Source: a virus. Taken from it: 64,000 bases of DNA. A program made the position numbers and the translations under genes. The notes under the pieces were generated by a model that ran no database searches, was not told the origin of the DNA, and worked only from the letters and a program-made list of their open reading frames with translations. The stretch covers positions 1 to 64,000 of the IMG/VR virus record IMGVR_UViG_3300033552_000004, one strand, 5' to 3'. Below, in pieces: positions 12,145-36,941 of this stretch; within the stretch, counting starts at the first letter, position 1, and each line of letters opens with the position of its first letter.

Positions 12145-12402
12145 TTAAGCAGCGCTAGCTGCGGGTTTATACCAACTCATCTGCCGCATAGCGGCAGCGT
12201 ATTCCGGTGACTCCACTGTAGCACCAACCTGCATTTCCAGCACGGAAATCTTCAGTGCCATTTCACGAATCCTCTCAGCCTGATTTTTCGTCTCATCCCA
12301 GAGTGCCAGCAATACCAGGTCTGCTTTTGTCTCTGTACTTTTCTCAAACCTCGCTTGCGCCTTGTGGTAGGCGGTGAGTGCTGGATTTTCTCTATTGCTC
12401 AT
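12145..12402 (-). CDS. Hypothetical coiled-coil protein, 85 aa
   Basis: No family recognised. Charged and helical throughout (TETKADLVLLALWDETKN, ERIREMALKISVLEMQ), probably a coiled coil. Start ATG 12402 behind caaggaagacATG. It is the first leftward gene after the divergence point. Confidence 0.72.
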   Translation of the reverse strand: MSNRENPALTAYHKAQARFEKSTETKADLVLLALWDETKNQAERIREMALKISVLEMQVGATVESPEYAAAMRQMSWYKPAASAA

Positions 12403-12599: not shown

Positions 12600-12830
12600 C
12601 TATTTTATTAATAGTGTGTTTTAGGCTAGCTATAGACTAGTCTAAGACTATGCTTAAGCTTTATATTAGCTCTGAAAGAGCCTTATATGCTTAAGGTTAT
12701 ATAAGCACACTATCACTTATAAGTAACAGTTATTAGTAGTTGTTTTAAATGCTTAGAGCTATAAGAGAATAACCTATATCTACTTTAAGTTATAAGCATA
12801 GTCTATAGCTACGCTTTTTCGTGCTACAAA
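12600..12830. repeat. AT-rich nested inverted repeats (possible origin unwinding element)
   Basis: Visible arms: atagtgtg 12611-12618 with cacactat 12706-12713, central hairpin gctct-gaa-agagc 12669-12681, and a perfect 13-bp pair tagctatagacta 12627-12639 with tagtctatagcta 12799-12811. The segment is markedly AT-rich and gene-free. Confidence 0.8.
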
Positions 12831-13043
12831 CCTGGCGCAAAGCCTGCGGCCTGTTTAAAGCCTCTCCAAGCGATTTGTTTGGTGTCAGGCTAGGGTAGGC
12901 AGGGGTAGGGCGTTTACGCAGCTTCCAGACCCATTACAGCAAGCAACAACCCGCTTTACCGACGACTTTGAAGCTGCTGGGTTGGTGCGCTTGGGGGTGC
13001 TGTGTCCGTATTCTACTGTAAGACGGCTGTTTGGGTTTACTGG

Positions 13044-13197
13044 TTATCCACAGCTGCCCCGGTAACAGGTATTTTAGGTAAAAACTCTTGGAACCCGCAC
13101 CAGCATTGGCTTTTGCTTGTGGGTAACAACACTTATCCACAAGCAGTGAAGCAGTGAATTTTGCTTTCTCTGGTGTGTTATCAACAGCTTGTGCACA
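13044..13197. other. Cluster of DnaA-box-like sites (candidate replication origin)
   Basis: Two perfect TTATCCACA boxes (13044-13052 and 13133-13141), one TTACCCACA on the minus strand (13126-13118), TTATCAACA (13178-13186) and TTGTGCACA (13189-13197). The 13133 box closes an 8-bp inverted repeat gcttgtgg/ccacaagc. The cluster is next to the AT-rich repeats and to a RepL-like gene. Confidence 0.7.
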
Positions 13198-13438
13198 ATC
13201 GTTAAAAACTTCTTATACCTTTTTAGGCTGTAAAGTTGACCACCCCATGCCTGTTTGCCGAAGCTGCCTGGCGTGGACAACTTACCTCGCGGCGGTGGGG
13301 TCTTATTAAGAAGCCATCAGGCTGCAACCCGCATGGATGCTAGGTGGCGCGGACAGAAATTGACGACTAGCGGCCAACATCAGACGATTAGAGGCCATTC
13401 GTTGCTTACGGTTTGGCCGGTTATTGTCAAAAAAGCCA
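13198..13438. other. Gene-free remainder of the control region
   Basis: No supported ORF. It is less AT-rich, with no clear repeats, and leads into the rightward promoter at 13439. Confidence 0.6.
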
Positions 13439-13467
13439 TTGACAGTGGCACCCTGCCGACGTATAGT
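13439..13467 (+). promoter_or_regulatory. Strong sigma70-type rightward promoter
   Basis: A consensus -35 TTGACA (13439-13444), an exact 17-bp spacer and a -10 TATAGT (13462-13467), 32 bp before the start of the RepL-like gene. It is the only near-consensus sigma70 promoter I found in the window. Confidence 0.88.
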
Positions 13468-13499
13468 TGGCACTCAGACTAACAAAACAAGGAGTAGAT

Positions 13500-14054
13500 A
13501 TGACCGACACCGGACAAATTCAGGCTTTTGGTGAGCGTAATGGCCTGCCATACTACAAAACAAACCCATCAATTCCGGCTAGTGGCATGGTTCCGTCTCG
13601 CACAAGAACGACTCAGATTGCTAGGGGCGGCAAGGCTGTCGTGGTAAACGCCACAGGGGAGGTGCTTGGGAAGGCCTCTATCGCATTCATGCAAAGCGAG
13701 GAGGTAGACCAGGCTAAGTTTGTCAAACTCTACATGGACGGATTGCGGCAGATAGCTGGCCTGTCTAAGGCGGGGATTGCTGTGTGTGAGATTGTGTACG
13801 AACAGATGCAGGAGAAGGTCAACAACGACCACATCATTCTCAGTTACTCCTTGGCTAAAGAACTCGGAATCTCTGAGCGCACATACCGTCGCGGCGTAAG
13901 GGACTTGCTGGAAAAAGAGGTAATCTTCGCCAGCCCTGCGGAGGGAATGTTTTTCTTGAACATCCAGTACATGTTCAACGGTAACAGGTTACACTTCGTT
14001 AAGTCCTATCACAAGGCGGCAATGGTACTGGGAATTGAGGAAGGTGATAAGTAG
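13500..14054 (+). CDS. RepL-like winged-helix protein, candidate replication initiator
   Basis: Start ATG 13500 behind aaaacaaggagtagatATG, giving 184 aa. The middle and C-terminal parts recall RepL-type plasmid initiators: a helical KFVKLYMDGLRQIAGL segment, ILSYSLAKELGISERTYRR (helix-turn-helix, about 114-132), then FASPAEGMFFLNIQYMFNG and RLHFVKSYHK. RepL proteins bind an origin and recruit host replication factors. The position beside the DnaA-box cluster fits this. An early transcription regulator with the same fold is the alternative. Confidence 0.7.
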   Translation: MTDTGQIQAFGERNGLPYYKTNPSIPASGMVPSRTRTTQIARGGKAVVVNATGEVLGKASIAFMQSEEVDQAKFVKLYMDGLRQIAGLSKAGIAVCEIVYEQMQEKVNNDHIILSYSLAKELGISERTYRRGVRDLLEKEVIFASPAEGMFFLNIQYMFNGNRLHFVKSYHKAAMVLGIEEGDK

Positions 14055-21682: not shown

Positions 21683-22261
21683 ATGGATGAAGCACAGACT
21701 AAGGTGAAGGCATGGAGGGAATATTTCTACTACGACGCCACTAGCGCTACAGGTCTACGTTGGAACACAGAGATACGGAGCGGCGTGTACAGCATTCGGG
21801 TGATGTGTAGGCCGGGAGATGTGGCAGGAAGCGTCAAGAGTAACGGGAGGGGTTGTCAAGTTAGCCTTCACGGTGTGAACTACTTTGTTCACAGAATTAT
21901 CTGGGAGCTTCATCATGGTCTGCTAACAGACGATCAAGTAATAGATCACAAGGACGGTAATCCTCAAAATAACCTGTTGGATAATTTGAAGGCGATGACC
22001 CAAATCCGCAACATGCGGAACCAAAAGAAGTCCTCAAACAACACATCCGGCGCTAACGGGGTAAGCCACATGCATGTCAAAGGCAGCGACTACGCTGTAG
22101 CCTCTTGGCGAACACTTGAGGGTAAGTTCAAACAGCGGTGCTTTTCTGTTAAGAAGTTTGGCCTTGACGGAGCTTTTCAGCAAGCTATTGCATGTAGGGC
22201 AGAAGCCGTCGAGAAGATGAATGCCAATGGGGCGGGATATTCAAGTCGTCATGGAACATAA
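21683..22261 (+). CDS. HNH homing endonuclease with AP2-like domain
   Basis: This 192-aa protein has an HNH_3 core: VHRIIWELHHG, VIDHKDGNPQNN and LDNLKAMTQIRNMRN. It is followed by an AP2-like DNA-binding segment (NTSGANGVS ... YAVASWRTLEGK). This combination is typical of free-standing phage homing endonucleases that spread by cutting allelic sites. Start ATG 21683 is one base after the hydrolase stop. It sits between the SleB-like gene and thyX. Confidence 0.9.
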   Translation: MDEAQTKVKAWREYFYYDATSATGLRWNTEIRSGVYSIRVMCRPGDVAGSVKSNGRGCQVSLHGVNYFVHRIIWELHHGLLTDDQVIDHKDGNPQNNLLDNLKAMTQIRNMRNQKKSSNNTSGANGVSHMHVKGSDYAVASWRTLEGKFKQRCFSVKKFGLDGAFQQAIACRAEAVEKMNANGAGYSSRHGT

Positions 22262-36195: not shown

Positions 36196-36212
36196 GATTG
36201 AGAAGGAGAATT

Positions 36213-36941
36213 ATGCAACAAAAACAAATGTTTGTCGGAGATACATTTGAGACAAAGGACTCCGGCACGATTCGGGTCATAGAGCTTCTGGTTGGCAGTA
36301 AGGCAGTAGTAGAGTTTGATGACGGCAACACTGGCACGTTCCACAGAGCAAACATTGTCAGAGGTCTTGTTAAAAATTATATGAAGCCAATAATCTTCAA
36401 TAGGGGGTTTCTAGGTAGTCCGAGAACTTCAAAATGCAGAGCCTACGGTGTTTGGTCGCAGATGTTCAACAGATGTTACTCTGGAAAGTTCCAAGCTTAC
36501 CGCGACTGTACGGTTAATGAGGTTTGGTACGATTTTCAAGTCTTCCGCAGCTGGTATGAGGAACAGAAAAACTCGTCCATATTGGGCTTTGAGTTAGACA
36601 AGGATATTCTCCAACGAGGGAATAAGATTTACTGTGCAGAACTATGCCAAGTTATCCCAGCCAACCTGAACAAACTTCTTGAAAGCTCTAGGGCCTCAAG
36701 AGGGGCGCTACCCTTGGGCGTATCTTTGCACAAAGGTACTGGTAAGTATTTAGCAAGGTGTTGTGACGCCAAAGGCGGATACCCGCACATCGGGCTTTAC
36801 CCGACAGTTGACGAGGCTTTTGCAGCGTACAAAGCGGCTAAAGAGGGTTTTATCAAAGAATCGGCAGAAAAGTACAAGCACCTTATCACTTCCGATGCCT
36901 ACGACAAATTACTGCTATGGGAGGTAAAATATAATGACTAG
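36213..36941 (+). CDS. Homing-endonuclease-like protein (HNH/AP2 type)
   Basis: Start ATG 36213 behind gagaaggagaattATG (242 aa). The core reads AYGVWSQMFNRCYS, a Trp-Asp-Phe segment (VWYDFQVFRSWYEEQ), LDKDILQRGNKIYC and QVIPANLNKL, typical of phage homing-endonuclease-like proteins with AP2 DNA-binding modules. The His/Asn triad is not fully visible, so activity is uncertain. It sits between SSB and the exonuclease gene and overlaps the latter by eight bases. Confidence 0.78.
   Translation: MQQKQMFVGDTFETKDSGTIRVIELLVGSKAVVEFDDGNTGTFHRANIVRGLVKNYMKPIIFNRGFLGSPRTSKCRAYGVWSQMFNRCYSGKFQAYRDCTVNEVWYDFQVFRSWYEEQKNSSILGFELDKDILQRGNKIYCAELCQVIPANLNKLLESSRASRGALPLGVSLHKGTGKYLARCCDAKGGYPHIGLYPTVDEAFAAYKAAKEGFIKESAEKYKHLITSDAYDKLLLWEVKYND

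Follow-up and report, generated by a model that had tools for sequence, protein, structure and literature searches.

How replication begins is not known for the majority of virulent phages with fork proteins of their own, and a phage carrying a plasmid-type initiator gene next to a defined candidate origin offers a testable case. How would such a phage use a plasmid-type initiator? We addressed this question for the window, i.e. bases 1-64,000 of the 66,414-base virus record IMGVR_UViG_3300033552_000004. Our analysis suggests, with a probability of roughly 0.7, that a RepL-type plasmid replication module occupies the region at 13.04-14.05 kb and resides in a tailed phage with its own fork proteins. 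The features of the locus, read from the sequence unless other evidence is given, are as follows.

12600..12830, no strand: AT-rich tract with nested inverted repeats, putative unwinding region (29.9% GC, excess of inverted repeats)
13044..13052, + strand: perfect DnaA box TTATCCACA
13118..13126, - strand: DnaA box with one mismatch, TTACCCACA
13133..13141, + strand: perfect DnaA box TTATCCACA
13178..13186, + strand: DnaA box with one mismatch, TTATCAACA
13189..13197, + strand: weak DnaA-like site TTGTGCACA with two mismatches (a similar TTGTGCACA lies beside AGCTTGT in the related contig L211)
13233..13251, + strand: left arm of the origin inverted repeat, DnaA-box-like, AAGTTGACCACCCC (pairs with 13270-13283 at 10/11 core positions)
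13270..13283, - strand: right arm of the origin inverted repeat, GGCGTGGACAACTT (reverse complement AAGTTGTCCACGCC; GC-TGGA-AAC invariant in 7/7 close RepL loci)
13307..13335, + strand: RepL-origin element TAAGAAG-N11-CAACCCGCATG (plasmid elements with identical spacing)
13362-13376, no strand: iteron/operator-like direct repeat GACGACTAGCGGCCA
13383-13397, no strand: iteron/operator-like direct repeat GACGATTAGAGGCCA (21-bp spacing from GACGACTAGCGGCCA)
13414-13428, no strand: inverted iteron/operator-like copy TGGCCGGTTATTGTC
13439..13467, + strand: repL consensus promoter TTGACA-17-TATAGT (11/12 consensus positions)
13489-13494, upstream of repL: ribosome-binding AAGGAG
13500..14054, + strand: repL, encoding a plasmid-type replication initiator of 184 aa (PF05732 3.3e-5; full-length plasmid homologues with 36-44% identity)

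A sequence-only reading of this DNA had placed a candidate origin exactly where leftward and rightward genes diverge. This divergence is real, as the nearest leftward ORF starts at 12402, with 13500 being the start of the rightward block. In each of the three blocks of the window the GC skew tracks the coding strand and is thus unable to separate the direction of replication from that of transcription. We found no end repeats in the 66.4-kb record, meaning that it may be incomplete, and no convincing terminase either; on both grounds the record is probably incomplete, and we dropped the idea of symmetric replichores on a 66.4-kb circle with divergence at ~13 kb and convergence at ~46.5 kb for the same reasons. 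The window starts with a perfect 25-bp tandem repeat of 6.1 copies with a hairpin unit GCCTGTATAGCCCCGTAGGGGCTGA (1-152), probably the point where the assembly broke. The T7-type fork proteins ascribed to this phage were recovered in profile searches as a T7-type primase-helicase with Toprim and DnaB-type helicase domains (phrog_239, 6e-167) and a family A polymerase (phrog_17, 3e-94). Elsewhere in the window, the large subunit of ribonucleotide reductase is encoded on two overlapping ORFs matching consecutive parts of the profile (41894-44130), reflecting a frameshift, a split gene or a sequencing error, and the rightward block contains several HNH endonuclease genes (21683-22258, 36198-36938 and 38607-39143), as expected for mobile homing genes.

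The gene at 13500, described earlier only as RepL-like, encodes a protein matching the Pfam family RepL (PF05732) with 23.9 bits and 3.3e-5, above the gathering cut-off of 20.3 bits. Its full-length homologues are encoded by plasmids of Acidisoma (44% identity), Methylomagnum (39%), Escherichia and Salmonella (both 36%). The membership motifs NP, TGE, VD-FVK and FNG(D/N)R are present and the invariant residues of the family are kept, the conserved positions in the window protein being N22-P23, G53-E54, D70, F74, K76 and FNG-R. Judged by profile match, motifs and alignment length, we show that the window protein belongs to the plasmid RepL family over its full length. No deposited phage (50,697 records) matched this protein, one plasmid RepL or either of two further viral RepLs. 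A truncated repL remnant is located inside an Acidisoma chromosome (L028).

Comparison of the non-coding DNA upstream of repL shows the same ordered elements as in the closest plasmid and viral RepL relatives: a DnaA-like inverted repeat, TAAGAAG...CAACCCGCATG, repeats and a promoter. The closest RepL subfamily comprises seven loci, i.e. the window phage, L171, L173, L174, L176, L194 and an Acidisoma plasmid. In this subfamily GC(A/G)TGGA(T/C)AAC, which reads as the DnaA-like GTT(A/G)TCCA(C/T)GC on the opposite strand, precedes TAAGAAG by ~25-40 bases with its core being invariant in all seven. A GTTACCCAC-type left arm is seen in all of them except L176, in which the aligned stretch begins too late, and the homologues GTTACCCACCCC/GTTGCCCACCCC of the left arm are present in L171, L173, L174, L194 and L029. 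In the wider set, TAAGAAG lies 120-290 bp upstream of repL in 22/45 loci including the window phage (shuffles: mean 0.6, maximum 4), a figure counting loci and not independent events since the RepL loci are mutually related; about half of the loci are without the exact TAAGAAG at the expected distance. In several plasmids TAAGAAG is followed, after a spacer of 11 bases, by CAACCCGCATG; the phage agrees with this arrangement at 17/17 positions (13308-13335).

A weight matrix covering the entire element and built from plasmids with the phage excluded ranks the phage site top on the + strand with a score of 13.8, but a purine-rich site on the - strand scores 16.8 and random genomes reach up to 15.3, and we rejected the matrix as a genome-wide locator because it is not specific. 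The looser pattern AAGAAG-N8-18-AACCCGCAT occurs at at least 120 loci in viral contigs, with RepL at none among the matches listed, and was attributed to chance. A leader peptide within the conserved element was ruled out by eye, as neither frame nor start is conserved. The case for an origin element rests jointly on the exact core, its spacing and its position before repL. The consensus rightward promoter of the sequence-only reading is indeed present, and the shared non-coding elements reach 100 bp past it. These elements, shared with RepL plasmids and viral contigs, suggest that the origin core is likely the segment at 13.23-13.48 kb, the DnaA boxes forming an upstream array. In Paracoccus, RepL of plasmid pMOS6 alone supports a minimal replicon, the origin of which was placed upstream of rep, where two 18-bp iteron-like repeats lie 3 bp apart (PMC3832669).

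The repeats at 13362-13428 adjoin the repL promoter and the protein matches helix-turn-helix families weakly in profile searches, which would also fit RepL being a helix-turn-helix repressor with the boxes titrating DnaA or controlling transcription; the dispensability, in P1, of DnaA sites close to the RepL origin (PMC9948254) points in the same direction. We nevertheless regard this regulatory role as very unlikely, as RepL is the sole annotated initiator in the plasmid homologues of 2-3 kb, as one RepL was shown to be sufficient for replication (PMC3832669) and as the shared non-coding elements run beyond the promoter.

The second component of the proposed module is the cluster of DnaA boxes. 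Two perfect and three near boxes had been claimed, and we find two perfect boxes, two with one mismatch and one weaker site. Four of these, namely the two perfect and the two one-mismatch boxes, fall within 143 bp (13044-13186), and this cluster is beyond chance: in 600 second-order Markov genomes there were never more than three boxes in 151 bp, and two perfect boxes within 150 bp occurred in 0/600. Across the whole window the number of one-mismatch boxes is that expected by chance (14 against 12.7). DnaA boxes are few or absent in most of the sampled RepL plasmids. The adjoining AT-rich tract, ~0.2-0.4 kb away from the boxes, was likewise described correctly, 12600-12830 being the 231-bp window of lowest GC content in the 66.4-kb record and its inverted 8-9-mer pairs exceeding shuffles, of which 6-7/1000 reach that count. 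As a single strand the tract has no significant predicted fold (z about -1.3 to -1.6), and no Rfam family matched.

Relatives of the window phage were traced via polymerase, primase-helicase, ligase and thymidylate synthase. L211 is collinear with the window (identities of 45% for ligase, 54% for thymidylate synthase, 55% for primase-helicase and 56% for polymerase). Whereas the DnaA boxes lie 3.9-4.0 kb upstream of ligase in the window phage, L211 has, at the matching place 4.3-5 kb upstream of ligase, six perfect boxes (405-1162), AT-rich DNA with CTTATATAAG palindromes lying among them (about 700-806) and TTAAGAAG at about 1241; RepL was not found within this 61-kb record. In G006, a closer relative with a polymerase 69% identical, neither RepL nor a DnaA-box cluster is present at the matching place, and homology of its AT-rich tract with that of the window is not significant. 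The contigs of G001, G004 and G005 end before the matching place. With boxes in L211 but not in G006 and RepL found in neither, only some members of the lineage share the DnaA-rich region, and RepL has a patchy distribution.

A DnaA cluster without detectable RepL in L211 means that RepL may not be the initiator of the lineage. The DnaA-box/AT-rich region would then be the lineage's own origin, with RepL a later accessory or regulatory addition dispensable for initiation. Besides the boxes, palindromic tract and TTAAGAAG kept by L211, the distant relative G008 carries a long AT-rich non-coding region with two perfect boxes ahead of a different helix-turn-helix gene. We consider this explanation unlikely: repL in the window is joined directly, in a plasmid-like manner, to a complete RepL-type upstream region and its own strong promoter, and G006 is without the box cluster.

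The region in G008 (L021:5300-8489) comprises ~2.2 kb of AT-rich non-coding DNA, its two boxes being 44 bp apart. The helix-turn-helix gene following it is 80% identical to a gene of Shewanella phage 1/4 and 27% identical to an ICP1 gene, which some records place at about 2.0-2.6 kb. Read coverage of ICP1 peaks late near the genome end, close to its G008-type gene (PMC7145576), and these genes are possibly an initiator family. Two further observations concern the relatives. G001 has a serine recombinase gene a few genes upstream of ligase, near the contig end (L026:12168-12869), and the polymerase match at L010:10001-13211 and L011:10001-13211 extends over 3.2 kb rather than 2.4 kb, so that the gene is apparently interrupted by an intron, an intein or an inserted gene.

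A RepL profile search matched 38 viral contigs (L004 turned out to be a spurious match in a single-protein RepL search of viral contigs). In a few other uncultured phage contigs RepL occurs together with phage replication genes: G025 encodes a terminase and a family A polymerase, G037 a polymerase, and G030 and G018 each a T7-type primase-helicase. G030 and G035 have AAGAAG at -181 relative to repL. Four contigs (G021, G023, G024 and G028) combine RepL with ParA and terminase, and such contigs are probably phage-plasmids. RepL is a plasmid maintenance protein, and together with these four contigs this is in agreement with the module maintaining a plasmid-like prophage rather than starting lytic replication. 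For the window phage this appears quite unlikely, as its gene content resembles that of virulent myoviruses and no ParA, ParB or tyrosine integrase is found in the 66-kb record, an absence that is not decisive in a record that is probably incomplete.

Overall, a RepL-type replication module operating in a phage with its own replisome would be consistent with RepL family membership, the shared origin elements and their positions, the DnaA cluster beyond chance and the matching place in L211. RepL alongside phage replication genes in G025, G037, G030 and G018 and pMOS6 needing only its RepL with an origin upstream of rep (PMC3832669) are counted on the same side. Against it count L211 and G006, the loci lacking the exact TAAGAAG, the higher-scoring - strand matrix site and the scarcity of DnaA boxes in most sampled RepL plasmids. 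Of the initial proposal, an origin with DnaA boxes beside RepL, the origin-like region, the true RepL and the phage with T7-type primase-helicase and family A polymerase are retained. The comparative core at 13.23-13.48 kb, however, is located to the right of the boxes, within the span first proposed but defined by elements absent from that proposal.

The data are compatible with a model according to which RepL would be expressed from its consensus promoter, bind the repeats at 13362-13428 and act on the element at 13.23-13.34 kb resulting in DNA opening. Opening would be assisted by DnaA occupying the inverted repeat as well as the four upstream boxes, and the AT-rich tract at 12.6-12.83 kb might serve as a further unwinding site. 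The first helicase loaded could be that of the host or of the phage, and the phage primase-helicase and polymerase would then run the forks. Firing, bidirectionality and dependence on DnaA are all inferred. A broader proposal is tentative, and we lean against it: virulent-type phages of different lineages may each have taken up a plasmid RepL origin, with host DnaA and the plasmid-type initiator opening the genome before the phage replisome takes over.

As a summary, we compare the locus with known systems. Myoviruses of the Pseudomonas ventosus/phiPsa374 group have a primase-helicase ~50% identical to that of the window phage but, unlike it, a RepL match in none. Bacteriophage P1 resembles the window phage in having an initiator named RepL, an AT-rich region and DnaA sites. 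P1 RepL/oriL starts lytic theta replication, and mutating the nearby DnaA sites had no significant effect while the AT-rich region matters (PMC9948254). In P1 the origin has been located within repL, whereas the conserved elements of the window lie upstream of it; moreover, the window RepL has no detectable similarity to anything in the 50,697 deposited phages searched as one set. Staphylococcal RepL plasmids of the pSN2 family encode a small helix-turn-helix initiator of the same Pfam family as the window protein and are classed as rolling-circle replicons (PMC5703833), so that a theta mode is not to be assumed for the window module. Proteobacterial RepL plasmids (e.g. Paracoccus pMOS6, Bartonella pBGR2, Zymomonas pZMOBP6 and Acidisoma sp. 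plasmid unnamed4) share with the window the full-length RepL as well as the upstream TAAGAAG-type element, repeats and promoter, and the closest one (Acidisoma) and the viral contigs L171, L173, L174 and L194 also have the DnaA-like inverted sites. The window module differs from these plasmids by its denser upstream DnaA array, the adjoining AT-rich tract and its presence in a phage that itself supplies a primase-helicase and a polymerase. For the little-studied RepL plasmids, the TAAGAAG element together with the DnaA-like inverted repeat provides a concrete origin candidate.
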